A DNA stretch of 64,000 bases, taken from Mycolicibacter minnesotensis. GTDB lineage: Bacteria; Actinomycetota; Actinomycetes; Mycobacteriales; Mycobacteriaceae. Below, in pieces: positions 30,439 to 41,155 of the stretch (position 1 is its first letter; the number at the start of each line of letters is the position of its first letter). A program made the position numbers and the translations under genes. The notes under the pieces are model-generated. The model was not told the origin of the DNA. It did not search any database and was given only the letters and a program-made list of their open reading frames with translations. Location of the stretch: contig NZ_AP022589.1 of NCBI RefSeq assembly GCF_010731755.1, forward strand, positions 2,914,001 through 2,978,000, in the 5' to 3' direction.

Positions 30439-30663
30439 CTACTGCACCGGGCAGGCGTACTTGCGGGCCACATCCATCGCCCGTTGGTTCGCGGCCGGAC
30501 CGACGACCCCCTGCGCGGCGAGTTCCAACCCGATGTAGCCCGGCAGGCCACCCTCGCAGGACTGGTGGGCCAGGCGCCATGCGGTGTCGGGGTTCAGGTT
30601 GAACCCGTTGCGCTCCAAGCCTTCCATGTAGGTGTCGAACTCCGGGGTGCCCCAGATTGACAT
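30439..30663 (-). CDS. DUF732-like protein lacking its signal peptide (possibly truncated)
   Basis: The 74 residues follow the DUF732 pattern (FDTYMEGLERNG, then C and GG, ending VARKYACPVQ). DUF732 proteins are normally secreted with an N-terminal signal; here an in-frame TAA lies two codons before the ATG and no signal is present. It directly borders the AT-richer island starting near 30664, so the 5' part may have been lost when the island entered. It may be expressed or be a remnant. Confidence 0.6.
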   Translation of the reverse strand: MSIWGTPEFDTYMEGLERNGFNLNPDTAWRLAHQSCEGGLPGYIGLELAAQGVVGPAANQRAMDVARKYACPVQ

Positions 30664-30906
30664 TCGTTACGCAGCGTGGACGCTAGGGGGCTTTGCGACT
30701 GCCTACCGTGCGACGTCAGTTGACTGGCCCGCGGGTGGCGCGGCGCGGCGATATGCGAGGCGGTGCGACCTATCTGCGCCCCGTCACGGTTCGTTGGGGT
30801 GACCCCAAGGCCCTGGGGGGCATCCCCACCCCCGTATCCCCGACCGGGCTGTAATGCGTCGGCGGGAACGCGTACGGGTTACAGAGTCCGGTCAGCGCGA
30901 AGCTAC
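30664..30906. other. Non-coding gap at the left edge of the island
   Basis: No gene is supported here. It holds a small perfect hairpin TTGGGG-TGA-CCCCAA (30794-30808) followed by another G-run/C-run pair, perhaps the terminator of the minus-strand kinase gene. The 5' end of the native HhH-GPD gene, expected hereabouts by synteny, was not found. Confidence 0.5.
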
Positions 30907-32799
30907 CTACTTGGGCCAAATGCTCTTTGAGCAGTTATCGAATTGCCAGCGGCCGTCGATGAACGTCCATGTTCGTGGATTCATTGAGTCTGCAGGTGCG
31001 CTGGGGTCTTCATCGATTGAAACGACTTGGCCATGCGAACCATTGATGTTTGCGGTGGCGCTTACGTATTTCGGATTTCGGTCCTTGAAGAATATTTCAA
31101 GTATCGATCTGAAGTCTTCAAGGTTGCCGATGATAATTTTGCAGCGTTGTGAGTATAAAGCGTAGGCGCCAGCCGCATCCCCCTGCGAAGCTAGCATGTC
31201 GAGTCGATGAGCTGCGGCTTCGAGTGCTTCCTTCGAGTTCGGCGCCATGTCCGTAGTGTTCGCCGAGCCAATGAACGCAGTTTTGTACGCCTCGGCGTCA
31301 GAAGGCTTGAGTTCCCCTGTGACTCGGAGGACGAGGCTGTCTTTAACCGTGGTCCACTCCTGGCCTACTAAAGGCACGGTCGCTCGCACTTGTTGTATGT
31401 ACTCGGCGCGCTTCTGCGCAGCATTCTCATCTGGCCATTGCTCGACAGTCGCGCCGCAATCGACGCCTGCGTCAGCGATGGAACACGGGTTTACATTTGA
31501 GACGCGTGTGTCGACAAGAACGGTTGCCGCGACGTAACCGTTTGGGCGCCCGATCAGGTTGTTGGTGTCGTTGTCCTCAGTCAGGGCGATCAGGGTGGTT
31601 ACTTCTGGGATTGCTGCTTGGATCGCTTCTGCGGCAGTCTGCGCCGTTCTCGGACCAGGTGCCGGGGCTGCTGAGGGCCTTTCGGCTCCTATAAGGAACG
31701 AACCGGGTTCACCGCTGTGATGGTCGGCTGATAGGCGGGACACAGTCCAAGTGCCGCCGACTATAGCCACGGCTGCGGCAACACCCCCCGCAATCCATAC
31801 CGCTCGACGTTTTGCTATTGCGTCATATGGCTGTGAATCGGACGATGAAGACGATGGAACGGCTCCGGGGAACTCCCCGGCCTGTGTTGGCGCAGCGTCG
31901 GCCAACGTGGCGGCCGGCAGGGCCGCCAGAGTGGCCTCGGCAGCTATGGGCGCTCCTAGTGCATTTCGTGCGAAATCTCGCGCGAAAGCATCGCAATCCA
32001 AGTAGCGCCGGTCAGGATTCTTGTCTAGCGCCTTTTCGAATACGTTATCGAGCGCGACCAACTCGGGCCGTAAATCGCTAAGTTTGGGTGGGGTGGCAGT
32101 CAGGTGCTGGCTGATGACAGCGACAGGGTTGGTGCTCTGGTACGGCGCTGAGCCGGTGAGCAAATGAAATGCGGTCGCAGCCAAGGCGTACTGATCGGCG
32201 CGACCGTCAATCGCTTCGCCCAGTAACTGTTCGGGGGCCGCGTAGGCGACTGTCCCTACGGTCATATTTGTAGCTGTCAGACCGGATGGATCGCTGATTG
32301 CGCGGGCAATGCCGAAATCGGCTAATGCGATGCGCTGCCCACCGGGTCGTGGGTGTCCGCACAAGATATTGGCTGGCTTGACATCCCGGTGCAGCATCCC
32401 GGACTGGTGCGCGTAGTCCAAGGCGGAAGCGACCGCCGTGACTATTTCGGTGACGTGCAGTACGGGTATGCCTGCTGGATGCTGTGTGCGTATCAACTCC
32501 GCGGTGTCGAGGCCGTCGATGTAGTCCATTGAGATCCATAGCCGCCCATCGGCTTCTCCTCGGTCATGAAGGGCTACCAGATTGGGGTGCCACAACGCGG
32601 CAGCCAGCTCTGCTTCCTGCTGGAATCGCTTCTGGTACTCCGCGTCCGACGCAAATGACCTCGAGAGAATCTTCAGTGCCTCTTGGCGCGGCAATCGTGG
32701 GTGATCGGCGAGGTAAACCTCTCCCATCCCGCCGGAGCCGAGTTGTCGAATGATGCGAAATCCCGCGAAAACTGCACCGTTCTCAAGGGATGGGTTCAC
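30907..32799 (-). CDS. Membrane Ser/Thr protein kinase
   Basis: A 630-residue PknE/F/J-like kinase. Kinase domain, residues about 14-280: [10 protein letters not shown], Lys43 in [14 protein letters not shown] catalytic loop, DFGIARA, and [21 protein letters not shown] proline- and serine-rich linker follows, then one membrane helix ([19 protein letters not shown], about 330-350). The external part has two pieces: a lipoprotein-like sensor with two Cys ([12 protein letters not shown]) and a C-terminal NTF2-like domain ([11 protein letters not shown]... [15 protein letters not shown]). GTG 32799 is used; TTG 32805 is possible. It is the first gene of the AT-richer island; its partners are unknown. 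Confidence 0.88.
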
Positions 32800-32917
32800 T
32801 AGCAATGTGGGGTGGTCTTCCTATCTCAAGTGTTCTGTCTGTCACGCTTCTGGTTTCTAGCTGTCGCTCGACCGAACCAATAAGAGCCTGTCGCTCCGGT
32901 GATGTAGAACATTGTCC

Positions 32918-33208
32918 ATGAGAATGCTACTAGCTGCCATGTCGGTACCTGTCGCTGTCTTGCTTGCTCCATCGGCGTCTGCGGGAGTGGATGAGTTCGT
33001 AGACGAGATCACCAAGCAGAACGTCGACATCGGTATGGCAAACCTCCAACGACACAACCTCCCGTTGATGGGGCTTGAAGCCTGTACCCGTTTGCGAGGG
33101 GGGATGAGCTACGAGCAGACCCTCGCCTCATACCCCGGAGTGTTCGGTGACGGTGCCAGCGTGATCCGTATTGCCCAGCAGACCATCTGCCCGGAGACGA
33201 TCAAGTAG
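32918..33208 (+). CDS. Secreted DUF732 protein, island copy A
   Basis: A 96-residue secreted protein: signal MLLAAMSVPVAVLLAPSASA, mature part starting GVDEFVDEITKQN, with two Cys (EACTRL and QTICPE) likely forming a disulfide as in DUF732 proteins. It closely resembles the copy at 35715-36011; the second halves (RLRGGMSYEQTLASYP, FGDGASVIRIAQQTICP) are identical. ATG 32918 was chosen; a TTG two codons earlier aligns with the ATG of the other copy. A terminator hairpin follows. The repeat of this gene in front of both HhH 5' fragments suggests it belongs to the mobile unit. Confidence 0.82.
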   Translation: MRMLLAAMSVPVAVLLAPSASAGVDEFVDEITKQNVDIGMANLQRHNLPLMGLEACTRLRGGMSYEQTLASYPGVFGDGASVIRIAQQTICPETIK

Positions 33209-33228
33209 AACTGGCCTTACCTAGGAGA

Positions 33229-33257
33229 ACACCCCCGGCCACCGTGGCCAGGGGTGT
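33229..33257 (+). terminator. Hairpin after DUF732 copy A
   Basis: ACACCCC-C-GGCC pairs with GGCC-A-GGGGTGT with one mismatch around ACCGT, followed by CTTTC. It starts 21 bp after the DUF732 stop and also faces the convergent hypothetical gene. Confidence 0.7.
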
Positions 33258-33273
33258 CTTTCACCAGCCTGCC

Positions 33274-33780
33274 CTACGAGGCTGGGTCGTCAGGCTCGCG
33301 CGGCGGCATCTGGAGCACGTAGTAAGCCGTCAATGAATCCAACGCAGCAGTGATGGCTTTGCGCCGTAGCTCCGTCCGCATCTCGAAGCCCGTCCTCTTG
33401 AAAATCAGCAGCACGGTAGCGCCATTCGAATCAGCCTGACCCATCTGATCGGTAATACGACTGAGGTCGGTTTGCTCCTCCGATGCCCGCTGCATCACTT
33501 CCCTTACCGGCCCAACGATGAATTGGTCATCGGCGATCTCGACAATCGCCGAGCCTAGTGCGGAAATTTCTTGCAGTTGTCGTCTGAGCCTCGGCTCTGC
33601 ATTGCTCCACACCAGGTGTGCCTTACTAAACTGTCGCTTGAAAACTTGCAGCACGGGGATTCTGCGCGTCGGCACTGGCGGTTCAACCGCGAAATCTTCT
33701 CTGTCCAGGAAGCTGTTGACAGTGGACCTGAACTGTGTGATTAGTCCGTCCAACGGTTTGGTAGGCGGTAGATCAGTCAT
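33274..33780 (-). CDS. Hypothetical protein (168 aa)
   Basis: I do not recognise this protein. It begins MTDLPPTKPLDGLITQFRST, has no signal or membrane segment, and is mostly helical in appearance, with a charged centre (PRLRRQLQEISALGSAIVEIADDQF) and a Pro-rich end. It lies between DUF732 copy A and the truncated HhH 5' copy, on the opposite strand. The equivalent place in the second cassette holds a membrane protein instead, so it looks like cassette-specific cargo. Confidence 0.65.
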   Translation of the reverse strand: MTDLPPTKPLDGLITQFRSTVNSFLDREDFAVEPPVPTRRIPVLQVFKRQFSKAHLVWSNAEPRLRRQLQEISALGSAIVEIADDQFIVGPVREVMQRASEEQTDLSRITDQMGQADSNGATVLLIFKRTGFEMRTELRRKAITAALDSLTAYYVLQMPPREPDDPAS

Positions 33781-34108
33781 GCTGACACCCCTTCGGTCGA
33801 CGTTACAATTCAGCTCCGGCTATCCGTCGAGATCGCGGAACTCTCCAGGCGGTAACGCTACAGCTAGTGGGTGACAGTCTTGGTGCGCACAAGGGCTTGT
33901 GTTTTGGCGTGTCGTTTTTCGCCTCAGCAACTGTCCACATCCACGGCCCAGCAAACGATCTTCCTCAGAGTCCACTCGCTGAGTCGGCGTCGGCGGCCTG
34001 CTGGGGTTTCGGGAACGCACAGGGCTATCCGAGTCCTCTAACGCTCCCGGTTATCCGGCCCGGATGTTGAACTCGCGGCCCTTGCTCCGCGGCCCCCGAT
34101 TCCGTGGT
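33781..34108. other. Non-coding stretch within the island
   Basis: No convincing coding frame, hairpin or RNA gene was seen. It ends at the promoter of the truncated HhH-GPD copy (TACGCT, 34109-34114), which is also present in front of the second copy (36926-36931). Confidence 0.4.
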
Positions 34109-34171
34109 TACGCTCTCCGATGGTGGTGTAGTGCGGACGTAGATCGTCCGCGGTGTCGAGAGGTTGGCGTG

Positions 34172-34349
34172 GTGACTCGAAAACTTTGCCTCGCTCAAGA
34201 TCCCGAGGCCGACGAGCTGCTGGCGAAAAATCCGTTTGCTTTGCTAACAGGTATGTTGCTTGATCAGCAGATATCGATGGAACGGGCATTTGCTGGACCA
34301 AAGAAGATCGCCGAGAGGCTCGCCCGTAATCGTGTTGATACTTCTCAAC
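34172..34349 (+). pseudogene. 5' fragment of an HhH-GPD DNA-repair gene, copy A
   Basis: From GTG 34172 the frame reads VTRKLCLAQDPEADELLAKN, continues through FALLTGMLLDQQISMERAF and GPKKIAERLARNRVDTSQ, then switches to unrelated residues and stops at 34501. The first 59 residues are close to those of the gene at 36994, including the tail LARNRVDTSQ, but the DNA differs at many silent positions. The helix-hairpin-helix and catalytic parts are missing, so no repair activity is possible. The same upstream promoter element (GGTTACGCTCTCC) is present as in the second copy. Confidence 0.8.
34325..34349 (+). repeat. 25-bp junction repeat, left copy
   Basis: Matches 37147-37171 with two differences (both T to C). 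Contains TGTTGA, a 6-nt spacer and TCAAC. The two island copies of the HhH 5' fragment both end with this element, after which their sequences diverge completely. Confidence 0.75.
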
Positions 34350-34353
34350 CTAG

Positions 34354-34489
34354 TGGAATTGCACTGATTTGCTATCGCACCGTTGCTACTGACCTGCATC
34401 AGGTGGCTTGCCTGCGCTTGGCTGATTCCGACCTGTCTGAGCATCGGCAACCAGTCCCCGTGTATCACCTCCGCTTTGGCCGCGATCAA
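34354..34489 (-). pseudogene. DUF3102-like remnant
   Basis: On the minus strand, a frame from 34489 reads MIAAKAEVIHGDWLPMLRQV then GISQAQASHLMQVSSN. This resembles the start of DUF3102 proteins of phages and plasmids (KA-x-HG-x-W-x-ML-x-GIS-x-A-x-x-M). The similarity stops at the junction near 34350 and the upstream end is interrupted by a stop or frameshift. It appears to be a gene cut when the copy A cassette inserted. The call rests on a memory of the motif. Confidence 0.45.
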
Positions 34490-34541
34490 CTTCTAGCCTG
34501 AGCGCGATAGGGATTCTTTAGATAGGTTTACCGTACGCGCG

Positions 34542-35675
34542 TTAGGTGATCTCAACTATTTCTGGAAAACGAGCATCGGGGTTATCTATCTTTTCGACTG
34601 ATGTGAAATAGCACTGATTGTCGACTTCCCCGATGAGCTGCGTCGTCAGTAACTCTACTCTGGATATTGTTGAGTGACTTCTAAGTGCAGTAAGTATATC
34701 CTCACGGAGATGAGCTAGTACGTCTTCTCCGCCGCCGATTGTTATCGCTGAAATATCTACAGAAACAATCGCCGGGTAGCGGCCGGAAAACTGGCTAGCG
34801 GCAGATTTGACCGACCGTACGACGCCTTTAACCCGGTCTTGTCGAACCTCGCACGCGATATTGACATTGATAAATCGGCGAAGTGTCCCGTTCTCGTCTA
34901 CGGTGACTGCCTCGGTAGAAAGCTGATCAAATTCAGTAACTCCCCTGGGTAGAACCAGGCTAGTTGGCCCAACGCCGGCGGGGAGGATAGAAAAATGCGC
35001 CGTATAATTCCCCTCATCGGTCTCGCTGAAATTCGAGGGCTCGGTGCTGCGTAAACCTAATCGGGCAGCTGAGGCAATTCGGTCAATAGCGGCCCGGTTC
35101 GGCTCGGTGTGAAATGTAACTTCCAGAAGTAATGTCGAGTGGGCTATGTGCCGCGGAAATACGGCACGTAACTTCCGCTTGAGTATCCCATATAGCTCAA
35201 ACCGCGCTTTATCTCGCGAGCTGACGCTAGTCTTGTGCTTGCACTCAACTTCCATGCAGTCATCTATGAGTAGATCGGGAGTCTGAACCCCTGCCTCCGG
35301 GATGAAGAATGCTCGATGCCCGGCTTTTGCATACTCAGCAGCCACCCGAATCTCGTGAATAGCACTTGCGACCCGATCAGGGTCATCCAGTCGCAGATCA
35401 TCGATGCGGGTATCTAGATTTTGGGTGCCGGAATTTTGCAGGGCTTGGATATTCGACATCAGTTCACCGATCTGTAGCAATTGCTGCGATCGGTGAAGCC
35501 ACTCAGGTGGTGTGTTCTTATACTGCGCTAGCCACGATGCGATAACGTGCTGACTTCTGTGAGGACGCGATGTATGTGCGGCCAGCCAGTCCGTGCCCAT
35601 CAACTCGGCCAGCGCATTAGCCCATGCGACGTAATCTTCCGGCGCATAACTCCTTACCCCAGGAGGGCTAGACAT
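34542..35675 (-). CDS. PD-(D/E)XK nuclease-like protein (candidate defence gene)
   Basis: A 377-residue protein of no family I can name. A nuclease core is visible at about residues 108-150: an alpha helix with Glu (AIHEIRVAAEYAKAG), a strand, then TPDLLIDDCMEVECKHKTS, which gives P-D, ten residues, E-x-K. This is the PD-(D/E)XK arrangement of restriction-type nucleases. The N-terminal part is helical and the C-terminal 200 residues have no recognisable domain. GC content is far below the core genome (25 of 60 bases at 34561-34620). It stands alone between the truncated HhH copy and DUF732 copy B. A role in DNA restriction or phage defence is inferred. Confidence 0.65.
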   Translation of the reverse strand: MSSPPGVRSYAPEDYVAWANALAELMGTDWLAAHTSRPHRSQHVIASWLAQYKNTPPEWLHRSQQLLQIGELMSNIQALQNSGTQNLDTRIDDLRLDDPDRVASAIHEIRVAAEYAKAGHRAFFIPEAGVQTPDLLIDDCMEVECKHKTSVSSRDKARFELYGILKRKLRAVFPRHIAHSTLLLEVTFHTEPNRAAIDRIASAARLGLRSTEPSNFSETDEGNYTAHFSILPAGVGPTSLVLPRGVTEFDQLSTEAVTVDENGTLRRFINVNIACEVRQDRVKGVVRSVKSAASQFSGRYPAIVSVDISAITIGGGEDVLAHLREDILTALRSHSTISRVELLTTQLIGEVDNQCYFTSVEKIDNPDARFPEIVEIT

Positions 35676-35714
35676 GCTCGCAGGATAGACTAAACAGTCC
35701 GTTGAGGTAGAACT

Positions 35715-36011
35715 ATGTCCATGAAGCTGATACTCGCCGCCCTGGCCGTGCCCGCTGCCGTCCTGCTTGCCTCACCGGTTCACGCGGGTGTTGACGAGTT
35801 CGTGGACGAGATCAACAAGCAGAACATCGACATCGGCATGTACAACCTTCAGCGGTACAACCTGCCGCTGATGGGCCTGGAATCTTGCAACAGGCTTCGC
35901 GGTGGGATGAGCTATGAGCAGACCTTGGCGTCGTACCCATCCCTATTCGGTGACGGGGCCAGCGTGATCCGCATTGCTCAGCAGACCATCTGCCCGGGAA
36001 CGATTAAGTAG
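35715..36011 (+). CDS. Secreted DUF732 protein, island copy B
   Basis: A 98-residue secreted protein: signal MSMKLILAALAVPAAVLLAS ending at VHA, mature part GVDEFVDEINKQN, two Cys as in copy A. The protein is nearly the same as copy A but the codons are more GC-rich, so it is not a very recent duplicate; the two copies probably arrived separately. An ATG two codons later is an alternative start. It precedes a leaderless membrane protein gene and the HhH copy B. Confidence 0.83.
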   Translation: MSMKLILAALAVPAAVLLASPVHAGVDEFVDEINKQNIDIGMYNLQRYNLPLMGLESCNRLRGGMSYEQTLASYPSLFGDGASVIRIAQQTICPGTIK

Positions 36012-36132
36012 CGCAGACTCCGGTTAGTCCGCAGATGGCGGTGTACCGCATGCTGCAAGGGTCTTCTTGATCCAAGTTGTTGTGTGACGGTGCGACCGCA
36101 AAATGCATACGCGCATTTCATAGGATGCAGCC

Positions 36133-36816
36133 GTGAGCGAGGAATCGAATACCCGACCTCCCCTACATCGCCATCCGGTGGCGGTCTGGGGCTTAGGGGT
36201 CACTGGCGCTGCGGGCACAGTTGCCTCCCTCGCCAACGGGCGAAACACGCTAGCCGTGTTCACATCTCTCCTTATGGCTGGCGCGCTCGCGTACGCGGCT
36301 TACCCACGGGCTTCACGACTAGCGAGAAGCGTGCTCTACGGTTTTGCGGTTGCTGCTTTAGTTGTCGCCGTCCTCTCTTTGAATAATTCGGTAGGGACCG
36401 ACTTAGGCGGGCGACCGTCTAGCCCAGTCTCGGGCTCGGTGACCACAACCACCAGCACCACCAGCGCCACCAGCCCAACAACAACAATGCCGACGCCCAC
36501 CGCTCCTACAGGACCGCCCGAGAACGTTGATCTGTCTGTGGGCCAAACCGCAACGGTTTTGGGTGGTGACGCCATGGTTGGACTGAGTTCGGTTTACCCC
36601 AGCTCTTTCGTCAGCCTGACGTTCACGTCTGGAAGTCAGTCATGCACTATGAGTCCGTCACCGGCTCAAACGTATGTGGCTCACGGAGTTACACGTGGCG
36701 ACGTCGAGTCGTATTTCAGCGTGACTCTCGTTGGAATCGCCAAGGGATCTGCCAAGCTGGAAGTCCGGAAGATCCCCGAAAGCGAATACCGTCAGGGAAA
36801 CCTCTGCTTCTACTGA
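36133..36816 (+). CDS. Hypothetical membrane protein with Thr/Pro linker
   Basis: A 227-residue protein with three predicted membrane helices (about 17-33, 39-57, 64-84), a low-complexity Thr/Ser/Pro linker (about 100-131) and an external C-terminal domain with two Cys (SQSCTMS and NLCFY). The GTG start at 36133 is 6 nt after TAGGAT (36121-36126), so the mRNA is leaderless. I do not recognise the family. It occupies the same place in the second cassette as the 168-aa hypothetical gene does in the first. Confidence 0.7.
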   Translation: MSEESNTRPPLHRHPVAVWGLGVTGAAGTVASLANGRNTLAVFTSLLMAGALAYAAYPRASRLARSVLYGFAVAALVVAVLSLNNSVGTDLGGRPSSPVSGSVTTTTSTTSATSPTTTMPTPTAPTGPPENVDLSVGQTATVLGGDAMVGLSSVYPSSFVSLTFTSGSQSCTMSPSPAQTYVAHGVTRGDVESYFSVTLVGIAKGSAKLEVRKIPESEYRQGNLCFY

Positions 36817-36925
36817 CTATCCCGAAAAGGGTGAGTCCAAGGCGCTACGTCCGGTGCACTTTCTCGACAACAGCCGTTACCGTACTTGTACCTCTACGAG
36901 GTCCATATCGAGCGTGGGTCACGGC

Positions 36926-36931
36926 TACGCT
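36926..36931 (+). promoter_or_regulatory. Promoter -10 box of HhH-GPD copy B
   Basis: TACGCT in the context GGCTACGCTCTCC; the same box and context occur at 34109-34114 before copy A. The distance to the start codon (about 60 nt) is kept in both. Confidence 0.5.
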
Positions 36932-36993
36932 CTCCCGTGGCGGTGTCCGGCGGACGTTGAACGGTCTGCTTTCTATTGAGAGGCGGTGACTTG

Positions 36994-37677
36994 GTGGCTC
37001 GAAAACTCTGCCTCGCTCAAGATCCCGAGGCCGATGAGCTTCTAGCAAACGATCCGTTTGCCCTGCTCACGGGTATGTTGCTTGATCAGCAGATTTCCAT
37101 GGAATTGGCCTTTGCTGGTCCCAAGAAAATAGCTGACCGCCTTGCTCGTAATCGTGTTGACACCTCTCAACAGATCCCCATGGAAGTCGCGTTCGGCGGC
37201 CCGAAGAAGATCGCCGACCGGATGGGTGGGCTGGACCCGCACGAGATCGCCGGTCGCGACCCGGAAGAGTTCGCGGCGCTGTTCGCCGAAAAGCCTGCGG
37301 TGCACCGGTTTCCAGGCTCGATGGCGGGCCGCGTCCAAGCCCTCGCCAAAGCCGTATCCGAGCAGTATGGCGGCGACACGACCGCGTTGTGGACCGCCGG
37401 AGATCCCGACGGCGCCGAGGTGCTCAAACGCCTCAAGGCACTTCCGGGCTTCGGTGAGCAGAAGGCCCGCATCTTTCTGGCACTGCTCGGCAAGCAATAC
37501 GGGGTGACCCCACCGGGGTGGCGGCAGGCCGCCGGAGCCTACGGTGAGGCCGGAACACACTTGTCGATCGCCGATGTCGTGGATGAGGCGTCGTTGCAGC
37601 AGGTGCGCTCCACCAAGAAGGCCCAAAAGTTGGCGGCGAAAGCCGACCGGGAGAACAAGGGAAAGGCGGCGACGTGA
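36994..37677 (+). CDS. HhH-GPD base-excision repair protein, chimeric (Rv1156-like)
   Basis: A 227-residue HhH-GPD DNA glycosylase-like protein. The HhH hairpin is LKALPGFGEQKARIFLALLG (about 149-168). The gene is a fusion: residues 1-58 come from the island (AT-richer codons, same as copy A), and from about residue 59 the sequence is native high-GC. At the join the segment QQISMELAFAGPKKIADR (32-49) is repeated as QQIPMEVAFGGPKKIADR (59-76). The usual family member is about 195 residues. The frame is intact, so the gene may still work. GTG 36994 is used; TTG 36991 or 36976 are alternatives. A DUF1059 gene overlaps its stop. Confidence 0.85.
   Translation: MARKLCLAQDPEADELLANDPFALLTGMLLDQQISMELAFAGPKKIADRLARNRVDTSQQIPMEVAFGGPKKIADRMGGLDPHEIAGRDPEEFAALFAEKPAVHRFPGSMAGRVQALAKAVSEQYGGDTTALWTAGDPDGAEVLKRLKALPGFGEQKARIFLALLGKQYGVTPPGWRQAAGAYGEAGTHLSIADVVDEASLQQVRSTKKAQKLAAKADRENKGKAAT
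37147..37171 (+). repeat. 25-bp junction repeat, right copy
   Basis: Second copy of the element at 34325-34349, ending exactly where native HhH-GPD sequence starts. Here the palindrome is complete: TGTTGA (37155-37160), CACCTC, TCAACA (37167-37172), the layout of a recombinase core site. Confidence 0.75.
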
Positions 37678-39681: not shown

Positions 39682-39749
39682 GATTTCCCCAATCGTCGGC
39701 GGTGTCGTCTACGAGAACTGAAGCTACGTTGTTACTGATGAGGCTCAAG

Positions 39750-39763
39750 TGACACGTGTGTCA
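39750..39763. promoter_or_regulatory. TGACACGTGTGTCA palindrome upstream of pimE
   Basis: A perfect 6-bp inverted repeat with a 2-nt centre, between the Rv1157c-like gene and pimE. The form suits a TetR or similar dimer. It overlaps the earliest possible pimE start (GTG 39749), an argument for the later start. Confidence 0.5.
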
Positions 39764-39823
39764 TTTATAGAACCGTTACGGACCCGAACCGCGACAGTGA
39801 TCTGGCGGCCGTTCGCTACAGTC

Positions 39824-41155
39824 GTGCCGGTAGACACCACCCTCGACACCCCGGCCGCACGTTCCTGGGCGACCCGTCTCACCGCATGGGCGCCGCTGCT
39901 GCTGGTGGCGAGCATCGCGGCGCGACTCGCCTGGACCTACCTGACTCCGCGCGGCGCCAACTTCGTCGACCTGCACGTCTATATCGACGGCGCGGCCGCG
40001 CTGGCGCAACCCGGTGCGCTGTATGACTACGTCTACGCCGATCAGACGCCGGATTTCCCGCTGCCCTTCACCTACCCGCCGTTCGCGGCAGTGGTCTTCT
40101 ATCCGCTGCACTTCCTGCCGTTCGGGCTGGTCGCGTTCGTCTGGCAGATCGGAACCATGGCCGCGCTGTATGGGGTGGTGCGCCTGAGCCAGCGGCTGCT
40201 TGGGGGAGCGGCCGTCCCAGCTTCGCTGAACCGCCCTACCCAAGCGGCGGTCCCAGCTTCGCTGAACCGCCCTACCCAAGCGGCGGTCCCAGCTTCGGCT
40301 CTCCTTCGTCGAGCCTCGCTGAACCGCCGGGTCGCCATGCTGTGGACAGCGGTCGGGATCTGGACCGAACCCCTGCGTAGCACCTTCGACTACGGCCAGA
40401 TCAACGTGATCCTGGTACTGGCCGTGCTCGCCGCGGTCTGCAGCCGGCGATGGTGGGTCTCGGGCCTATTGGTCGGGCTCGCGGCCGGGGTGAAACTGAC
40501 CCCGGCGATCGCCGGCGTCTACCTGGCCGCGGCACGGCGCTGGGCCGCCGCGGTGTTCTCGGCGGTGGTCTTCGCCGCCACCATCGCGGTGTCGGTGTGG
40601 GTCACCGGCGATCAGGCCCGCCGCTACTTCACCGAGCTGCTGGGCGATGCCCACCGGGTCGGCCCGATCGCAACGTCGTTCAACCAGTCCTGGCGGGGCG
40701 GGATCTCGCGCATCGTGGGCCACGACGCCGGCTACAGCCTGCCGGTGCTGATCGCCATCGGTGTCACCGCGGTGCTGGCGGTGCTCGCCTGGCGAGCACT
40801 GAACAGTACGTCCGCCGGTCCCGATCCCCTGGGGTCGCTGCTGGTGGTCGAGTTGTTCGGGCTGCTGGCCTCGCCGATCTCATGGACTCACCACTGGGTC
40901 TGGCTGCTGCCCCTGATGATCTGGCTGCTGCACGGCCCCCACCGCGACCGGCTCGGCGCGCGGGTGTTGGGCTGGGGTTGGCTGGCGCTCACCGTGATCG
41001 GCGTGCCCTGGCTGTTGAGCTTCTTCCAGCCGACCATCTGGCAGAACGGGCGACCCTGGTACCTGGCGTGGGCCGGCCTGGTCTACATCGTCGCCGCCGT
41101 GGCCACCCTGGCCTGGATGGGGACCACGAGGGTCAGGTCGCCAGAATCCGGTTGA
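39824..41155 (+). CDS. pimE: Polyprenol-phosphate-mannose-dependent mannosyltransferase PimE
   Basis: A 443-residue GT-C (GT87) membrane enzyme that adds an alpha-1,2-mannose to PIM4 on the way to polar PIMs. Multiple helices and the first-loop catalytic Asp in [14 protein letters not shown] are visible; [16 protein letters not shown] and [12 protein letters not shown] are typical of the family. An in-frame 36-bp tandem repeat (40208-40297) inserts [12 protein letters not shown] twice plus a part copy in a loop. GTG 39824 gives a length near the 431 of M. tuberculosis; GTG 39749 is in frame but overlaps a palindrome. The 3' end overlaps the convergent pterin dehydratase gene by 23 bp. Confidence 0.9.
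40208..40297 (+). repeat. 36-bp in-frame tandem repeat within pimE
   Basis: Two full units (40208-40243 and 40244-40279, one base different) and 18 bp of a third. Each codes [12 protein letters not shown]. The continuation (40298-40330) repeats CTCGCTGAACCGCC again, so the whole insert is about 120 bp. Confidence 0.85.

Follow-up and report, generated by a model that had tools for sequence, protein, structure and literature searches.

In a 64,000-nt window of the Mycolicibacter minnesotensis genome (contig NZ_AP022589.1, positions 2,914,001 to 2,978,000), we analyzed an island at positions 30653-37173 that ends within an HhH-GPD repair gene of the TIGR03252 family, which we take to be the counterpart of Rv1156. 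Considered as a class, such islands are very probably serine-integrase elements that insert into the TIGR03252 gene and restore its reading frame with a 5' part which they carry themselves. This explanation draws on junctions, an integrase, half-sites of the element's attachment site (attP), orphan remnants, open frames and empty sites, and on one phage that uses the same codon without repair. A first-pass annotation of the window had proposed a carried 5' end that restores the target; this core inference holds, and to it we add the agent, a large serine integrase, and the identity of the junction as an attP arm, neither of which the annotation had seen. Genomes, loci and proteins are cited below by our labels in G, L and P.

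The block consists of two parallel units, a and b, and is AT-richer than most of the flanking DNA, as the first-pass annotation had stated. In 500-bp windows its GC content is 0.50-0.62, compared to 0.60-0.74, mostly above 0.64, in the flanks (25 to 42 kb). Two direct repeats define the reported period of about 2.8 kb: D1 (32895-33194 and 35698-35997; 300 nt, 77% identical, spacing 2803) covers the DUF732 genes, and D2 (34158-34349 and 36980-37171; 192 nt, 82% identical, spacing 2822) covers the start of the HhH-GPD gene. Where the two HhH 5' copies differ over 177 nt, 23 nt fall in silent and 6 nt in changed codons, which agrees with the many silent differences noted before. Copy a ends directly after NRVDTSQ, i.e., after the P-arm of attP, and is followed by unrelated sequence; it is a dead fragment. 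Copy b joins the native 3' part in frame, giving an open reading frame (ORF) of 233 aa from TTG at 36976, or of 227 aa from GTG at 36994. The fused protein scores 332 bits against TIGR03252 (curated cut-off 136.5), and it contains the segment DQQIxMExAFxGPKKIAD twice, at 37083 and from about 37168, with LARNRVDTSQ as spacer. At the DNA level this duplication is repeat D3, a 51-nt stretch at 37086-37136 seen again in the native gene part at 37167-37217. The 3' part of the window gene is closest to that of G078 (91% of 360 nt). A PDB search with the model of the fused HhH protein gave nothing at E ≤ 0.001; its best-scoring entries were endonuclease III-type glycosylases (E 0.003-0.02).

At its left end the island lacks an attachment site, since the DNA similarity shared with 21 related loci breaks off within the native DUF732 gene, at 30651-30652. 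In the intact relative L035, the signal peptide of the DUF732-type gene is followed by the HhH gene. The kinase gene next to this end belongs to unit a or to DNA that formerly lay left of it, and the two units are therefore unequal in size. As reported earlier, the window holds neither tRNA genes (none found in 64 kb) nor a recombinase (none among the ten ORFs scanned with Pfam), and an integrase of the type found in the G035 island had no match at E ≤ 0.001 in the whole 4.22-Mb genome. A different large serine recombinase is encoded elsewhere in this genome (G000:C1:3643142-3643522, L255).

Relatives supply what the window has lost. The 233-aa protein was matched in 145 of the 148 genomes of the genus searched, the window genome included. 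We compared 120 of the remaining 144 loci, most with 15-19 kb upstream and some cut by contig ends; the other 24 lay mostly in fragmented assemblies. Empty sites with a gene of about 195 aa, which had been predicted, do exist: the 3' part has the PNPOx gene no more than 450 bp away in 12 of the 120 loci, and the native DUF732 gene no more than 365 bp away in 25. Where the native gene of relatives is cut, the cut lies after LDQQ, within the codons LDQQ(I/V)PME. An in-frame tail was present in six loci (L032-L037; the shorter variant of L038 is not counted) and an orphan native 5' fragment upstream in six (L033, L035, L037, L046, L051, L155; a weak match in L166 is not counted), so that nine loci have a tail, an orphan fragment or both. 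A further 16 stretches, taken from 15 genomes and targeted mostly by their 5' matches, added orphan fragments in G337, G395, G150, G341, G156, G177, and G255 and tails in G337, G395, G294, G355, and G341. The orphan 5' fragments that had been predicted are thus real, and other genomes combine the same HhH 5' end and junction with different cargo, again as foreseen. The DUF732 gene did not hold up as a shared cassette module: DUF732a matched (E ≤ 1e-4) only one of the 120 other loci, L043, in opposite direction. Tails of the P-arm kind also occur in 56 of the 120 protein relatives listed, the listing itself favoring sequences close to the query. A different kind of tail (QRVALDQQ, QRVAHDQQ, HRVAHGQQ) is found in L034, L242, L249, and in proteins such as P0073 and P0086; it suggests that a second family of integrases, with an attP of its own, uses the same codon.

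An ORF of 516-578 aa begins just inside the orphan fragment in G035, G119, and G085. Its product in G035 has Resolvase and Recombinase domains (PF00239 and PF07508 in L033) and is 77, 60, and 58% identical to the integrases of the cluster A phages Herbertwm, MyraDee, and Peaches, respectively. Among 14 orphan-fragment loci, a full integrase gene lies directly inside the left attachment site, attL, in five (G035, G119, G085, G395, and the IMG/VR contig L198), and two (G177 and G255) keep only the first 20-30 integrase residues. The first-pass annotation had set an adjacent integrase that explains all junctions against its own proposal; in relatives the integrase does explain the junctions, but the carried 5' end remains.

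The 25-bp junction, ATYGTGYTGNNACYTYYCARCAG, is the P-arm of attP and is translated as NRVxTSQ. This accounts for the junction in place of the attC sites of integron gene cassettes, at which no search was aimed. Allowing up to three mismatches, the motif occurs twice in the window against 0.01 occurrences expected. In genome_contigs (one genome per species, 84,980 species) it was found at 12 places, seven of them at the target gene (M. tusciae, M. xanthum, Mycolicibacterium sp. CBMA 247, M. peregrinum, M. arupensis, M. hodleri, and a metagenome-assembled genome of Actinomycetota), while the other five loci have no HhH gene. Ten of 396 genus genomes contain it: eight at the gene with a carried 5' part, one in a prophage at the gene, and one elsewhere (G329); a reversed-pattern control gave none among the matches listed. 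Viral contigs yielded two matches, including L198, a complete element whose two junctions lie 10.6 kb from each other. A matrix of the opposite arm, P', built from nine half-sites of other genomes, picked the two window P-arms, reverse-complemented, as its best matches in the island (18.9 and 8.9 bits; the next reached 6.4 bits). Around the elements in L033, L035, L037, L198, L240, and L241, attL (B-P') and the right site attR (P-B') share a short common core; the window keeps attR only. Joined to P', the P-arm forms an attP with clear dyad symmetry in L033, L037, and L240 and modest symmetry in L198, the observed value being reached by 0, 3, 2, and 16 of 500 shuffles, respectively. Attachment regions were inspected in three of 701 phages with a related integrase.

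All 14 tailed loci have an open frame that reaches from the start of the carried part to the stop of the native part, with tails of 27, 29, 30, 31 or 33 codons. Ten of these loci (window, G078, G035, G119, G123, G085, G337, G395, L186, L198) were found by the DNA motif alone. At six loci where both could be compared over 84 nt, carried and native 5' parts are 62-75% identical, and the native remnants are 81% identical among themselves. The 3' parts of tailed loci are no closer to each other (67%) than to those of other loci (68%). One group of carried parts is accompanied by a leader with invariant TA-GCTCTCC and GAGAGG, present in ten stretches (eight loci including L198, and both window copies); one exact leader pattern searched in viral contigs gave no match. 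A hairpin in this leader is plausible, with 96% of the cells paired, but its outer helix is invariant and it has no covariation support (score reached by 53 of 500 shuffles). GAGAGG precedes the start codon; the leader could hide the ribosome-binding site and may serve as promoter of the fused gene.

Taken together, we propose the following course of events. The host attachment site (attB) of a large serine integrase family very probably lies inside the codons LDQQ(I/V)PME of the TIGR03252 gene. The elements, comprising phage satellites with capsid genes and islands with other cargo, bring along, beyond attP, a leader followed by the opening ~60 codons of the gene from a foreign source, which run in frame into the P-arm. 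Integration would strand the native 5' part at attL, where it is seen as an orphan, and at attR the carried 5' part, the translated P-arm and the native 3' part would combine into a gene of full length that contains about 27-33 additional codons in frame. The fused gene is probably functional, and selection on the repair gene would maintain the patch. In the window, two elements would have arrived in tandem and then lost their left attachment halves, any integrase and the left flank, leaving relics held in place by the restored gene.

Several observations weigh against this course of events. Carried-type 5' parts without a tail are found in many loci, and the step that would resolve them was not observed; tail loss, e.g., in G016, could come from later recombination between the two repeats. 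At its locus (L045), G016 has the carried ISMEL residues and no tail, as if two repeats had recombined and the duplication had gone. Seven of the 14 orphan-fragment loci have no detected integrase, and the integrases of G037 (66% identical) and G123 (78%) and one of G078 lie on contigs away from the target gene; all three are draft assemblies, and a contig break may explain G123. The window itself retains only P-arms, with no integrase and no native 5' remnant, and the matrix search found no P' half after copy a (best local score -2.2, rank 181). The attP dyad symmetry of L241 and L035 does not exceed that of shuffles (66 and 333 of 500). Carried 5' parts, 70% identical among 11 tailed loci and 66% to native remnants, form no single clean clade. 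Four of the 14 open frames (L034, L242, L243, L249) came via protein matches, which favor open frames, and the 14 loci may share descent. Finally, the AlphaFold model of the fused protein has low confidence at the inserted linker (residues 32-64).

The same codon is also used by a phage that breaks the gene. G322 contains a Herbertwm prophage whose ends, at 4,408,772 and 4,460,304, are 51.5 kb apart, the length of the phage genome. Over the 6.5 kb compared, prophage and phage are 99.9% identical left of attP (in integrase orientation) and 100% identical on the integrase side, which provides indirect evidence that this phage's integrase would recombine attP with attB. The prophage interrupts the target gene after MARLQLTGDPASDDLLSEDPFALLTGMLLDQQ without bringing a 5' part, and the 3' part sits behind phage sequence; the codon is therefore used both with and without repair. 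Among published relatives we found a mapped site only for Bxz2, whose attB is Msmeg_5156 (PMC2884959); this gene is called a putative DNA glycosylase in PMC9262239. The target protein had no match at E ≤ 0.01 in 50,697 phage records, and three IMG/VR contigs, L198 among them, carry its 5' part, one of the three without a tail. We suggest tentatively, with a little less than even confidence, that a satellite lineage sharing this site with gene-breaking phages evolved insertion with built-in repair, consisting of a promoter and a front half ending in the attP arm, and that the attB-like segment it carries renews the target, so that elements pile up while the host keeps its repair gene.

The tandem arrangement of the window recurs in G341, where a native remnant is followed by a first carried part with P-arm, unrelated DNA, a second carried part with a different tail, and the native 3' part; the first of these units spans no more than a few hundred bases. 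An inner P1/P'2 junction would fit integration at an existing attL or attR and not into a renewed attB. A remnant of carried type, expected from integration into a regenerated attB, was seen only in G156 among the loci examined, where it fits reuse of an already restored gene. The order of events in the window is unreadable because the inner P' half is unrecognizable and a deletion has removed the left end as far as 30652. Two separate insertions, rather than a ready-made pair, probably gave rise to the window units. The first 58 residues of copy b are 93-97% identical to proteins of other genomes (the 97% of P0012 refers to a shorter part only) and 91% to copy a, which speaks for separate arrivals. 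It also speaks against a single insertion with a tandem duplication long ago in the window genome, after which the copies diverged and cargo was replaced. We regard such a duplication as unlikely, even though both units have a DUF732 gene and, of the genome loci compared, none is closer to either copy than the other copy is (0.88 of 84 nt, against 0.83 for the next relative of b and 0.81 for that of a): beyond D1 and D2 the cargo of the two units shares no DNA repeat, and the pair in G341 has the same layout with two different tails.

The window units could also be small non-autonomous elements instead of decayed ones, mobilized in trans by the integrase of a satellite or phage with the same attachment sites. 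We consider this possible, though clearly short of even. A model is offered by the 3-kb insert of G337, which has attL, attR, an Exo_endo_phos protein and no detected integrase, and short inserts in G063 and G150 likewise have no detected integrase. However, the window units keep no P' half, and integrase fragments at the target locus in G177, G255, G130, and G117, and another seen by eye in the DNA of G006, show that decay in place does occur. It seems very improbable that site-specific recombination played no part in this lineage and that the repeats stem from homologous exchange of 5' gene parts via transfer of flanking DNA. The frequency of tail-less carried-type 5' parts and the lack of anything active in the window would fit such exchange, but both copies end in a P-arm that matches those found in the attP of elements with an integrase and in the attP of a phage.

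The cargo differs between elements. In L033, L198, and L241, an integrase gene, phage capsid and replication genes lie together on a small element of about 10-11 kb, a set typical of capsid-carrying satellites and absent from the window units; the size of these elements speaks for the lack of a full virion gene set (some ORFs per element were scanned). L037 has genes for a C5 DNA methylase and a Vsr nuclease, and L032 and L036 have type I restriction-like loci, recognized by eye only. For the window, the first-pass annotation had named a kinase and a nuclease-like protein. The kinase is borne out by its domain; PADLOC PD-T4-6 models match it, and NCBIfam kinase models match below their curated cut-offs. 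The 377-aa protein is a putative nuclease by our own reading of PD-(D/E)XK-like motif residues, of which D134 and E144-C-K146 are invariant in 22 aligned sequences; its fold had no PDB match at E ≤ 0.001, with query-normalised TM-scores below 0.2 among the 50 matches listed. Its 25 relatives, some from Rhodococcus, Prescottella, Mycobacteroides, and Tsukamurella, bear no family name. The 168-aa protein forms one cluster only in a database of 5.8 billion proteins, and its residues 96-162, at the C-terminus, match L047 in the G117 island at the same locus (33%, tblastn E 2e-10). The 227-aa membrane protein had no family at cut-off in profile searches and has a 29% identical relative adjoining the carried 5' part in M. 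arupensis. Some cargo therefore recurs between elements. No defense family was found for the 168-aa, 377-aa, and membrane proteins.

Table 1. Features of the island and its borders in the window
Feature	Position	Strand	Evidence
Native DUF732-type gene, 5' (signal peptide) end cut off; left limit of island 30652/30653	30439..30663	-	homology stop in 21 loci
Cargo Ser/Thr protein kinase, 632 aa, PknB-like kinase domain	30907..32805	-	PF00069 E 4e-38
DUF732 gene, unit a	32912..33208	+	PF05305 E 8e-5; repeat D1
Cargo 168-aa protein	33274..33780	-	tblastn match in L047
Carried leader a, putative promoter (TACGCTCTCC, hairpin, GAGAGG)	34109..34171	+	leader in ten stretches, alignment
Carried HhH-GPD 5' part, copy a, dead fragment	34172..34349	+	82% to copy b
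attP P-arm a (25-bp junction)	34325..34349	+	motif with 2 mismatches; P' matrix 8.9 bits, second-best in island
Cargo 377-aa protein, PD-(D/E)XK-like motif	34542..35675	-	25 relatives; invariant D134, E144-C-K146
DUF732-like gene, unit b	35715..36011	+	repeat D1; no Pfam match of its own
Cargo 227-aa predicted membrane protein	36133..36816	+	ORF; tblastn E 9e-15 in L194 (M. arupensis)
Carried leader b, putative promoter	36926..36993	+	leader comparison, alignment
Carried HhH-GPD 5' part, copy b, ending in translated P-arm NRVDTSQQ	36994..37173	+	open-frame analysis; tails in protein relatives
Putative attB-like segment regenerated within carried copy (DQQISMELAFAGPKKIAD)	37083..37139	+	repeat D3
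attP P-arm b	37147..37171	+	exact motif match; best island match to P' matrix, 18.9 bits, opposite strand
Crossover placed in CAACAG core	37168-37173	+	at P-arm b
Native 3' part of HhH-GPD (TIGR03252) gene	37174..37677	+	TIGR03252 332 bits

Outside the island, the ORF translation of a predicted membrane protein at 39749-41155 contains a mid-protein in-frame tandem repeat with two full copies and one partial copy.

The islands illustrate a way in which a tiny-core recombinase, one that in at least one phage breaks its target, would be made harmless by a carried half gene and a translated attachment site, with a single codon separating satellites that repair from a phage that breaks. They explain the odd HhH-GPD proteins of ~217-239 aa in mycobacteria, and the in-frame duplication allows such insertions to be found from protein sequence alone. 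The locus can be searched as a hotspot for satellites, restriction genes and unfamiliar cargo.

In the open-access literature, which leaves most subscription papers outside, we found no description of a carried 5' end at this gene. Related strategies are known from other systems. SXT supplies a new 5' end to prfC. Like the islands, SXT/R391 elements integrate in the 5' part of a housekeeping gene, but they use a tyrosine recombinase and nearly identical attP and attB sites, and the accessible part of the source does not mention a translated attP linker (PMC2791158). Streptococcal integrative and conjugative elements in rumA share with the islands a serine integrase insertion that replaces one end of the target protein; there, in contrast, the 3' parts of rumA and the integrase gene are exchanged and the frame is changed, and no carried target copy is mentioned in the portion of the paper available (PMC4701971). 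Candidate phage-inducible chromosomal islands of Mycobacterium resemble ours in combining an integrase with a capsid gene, in small size and, for some, in a serine integrase; as far as the accessible text goes, no carried part of a target gene is mentioned, and 'glycosylase' and 'HhH' occur 0 times in the main text (PMC10654092). The serine integrase systems of the cluster A phages Bxz2 and Herbertwm correspond to the islands in integrase family, kind of target gene, short core and the position of the integrase gene beside attP. Herbertwm, which lacks a spare 5' part, leaves the gene split, whereas the islands restore it.

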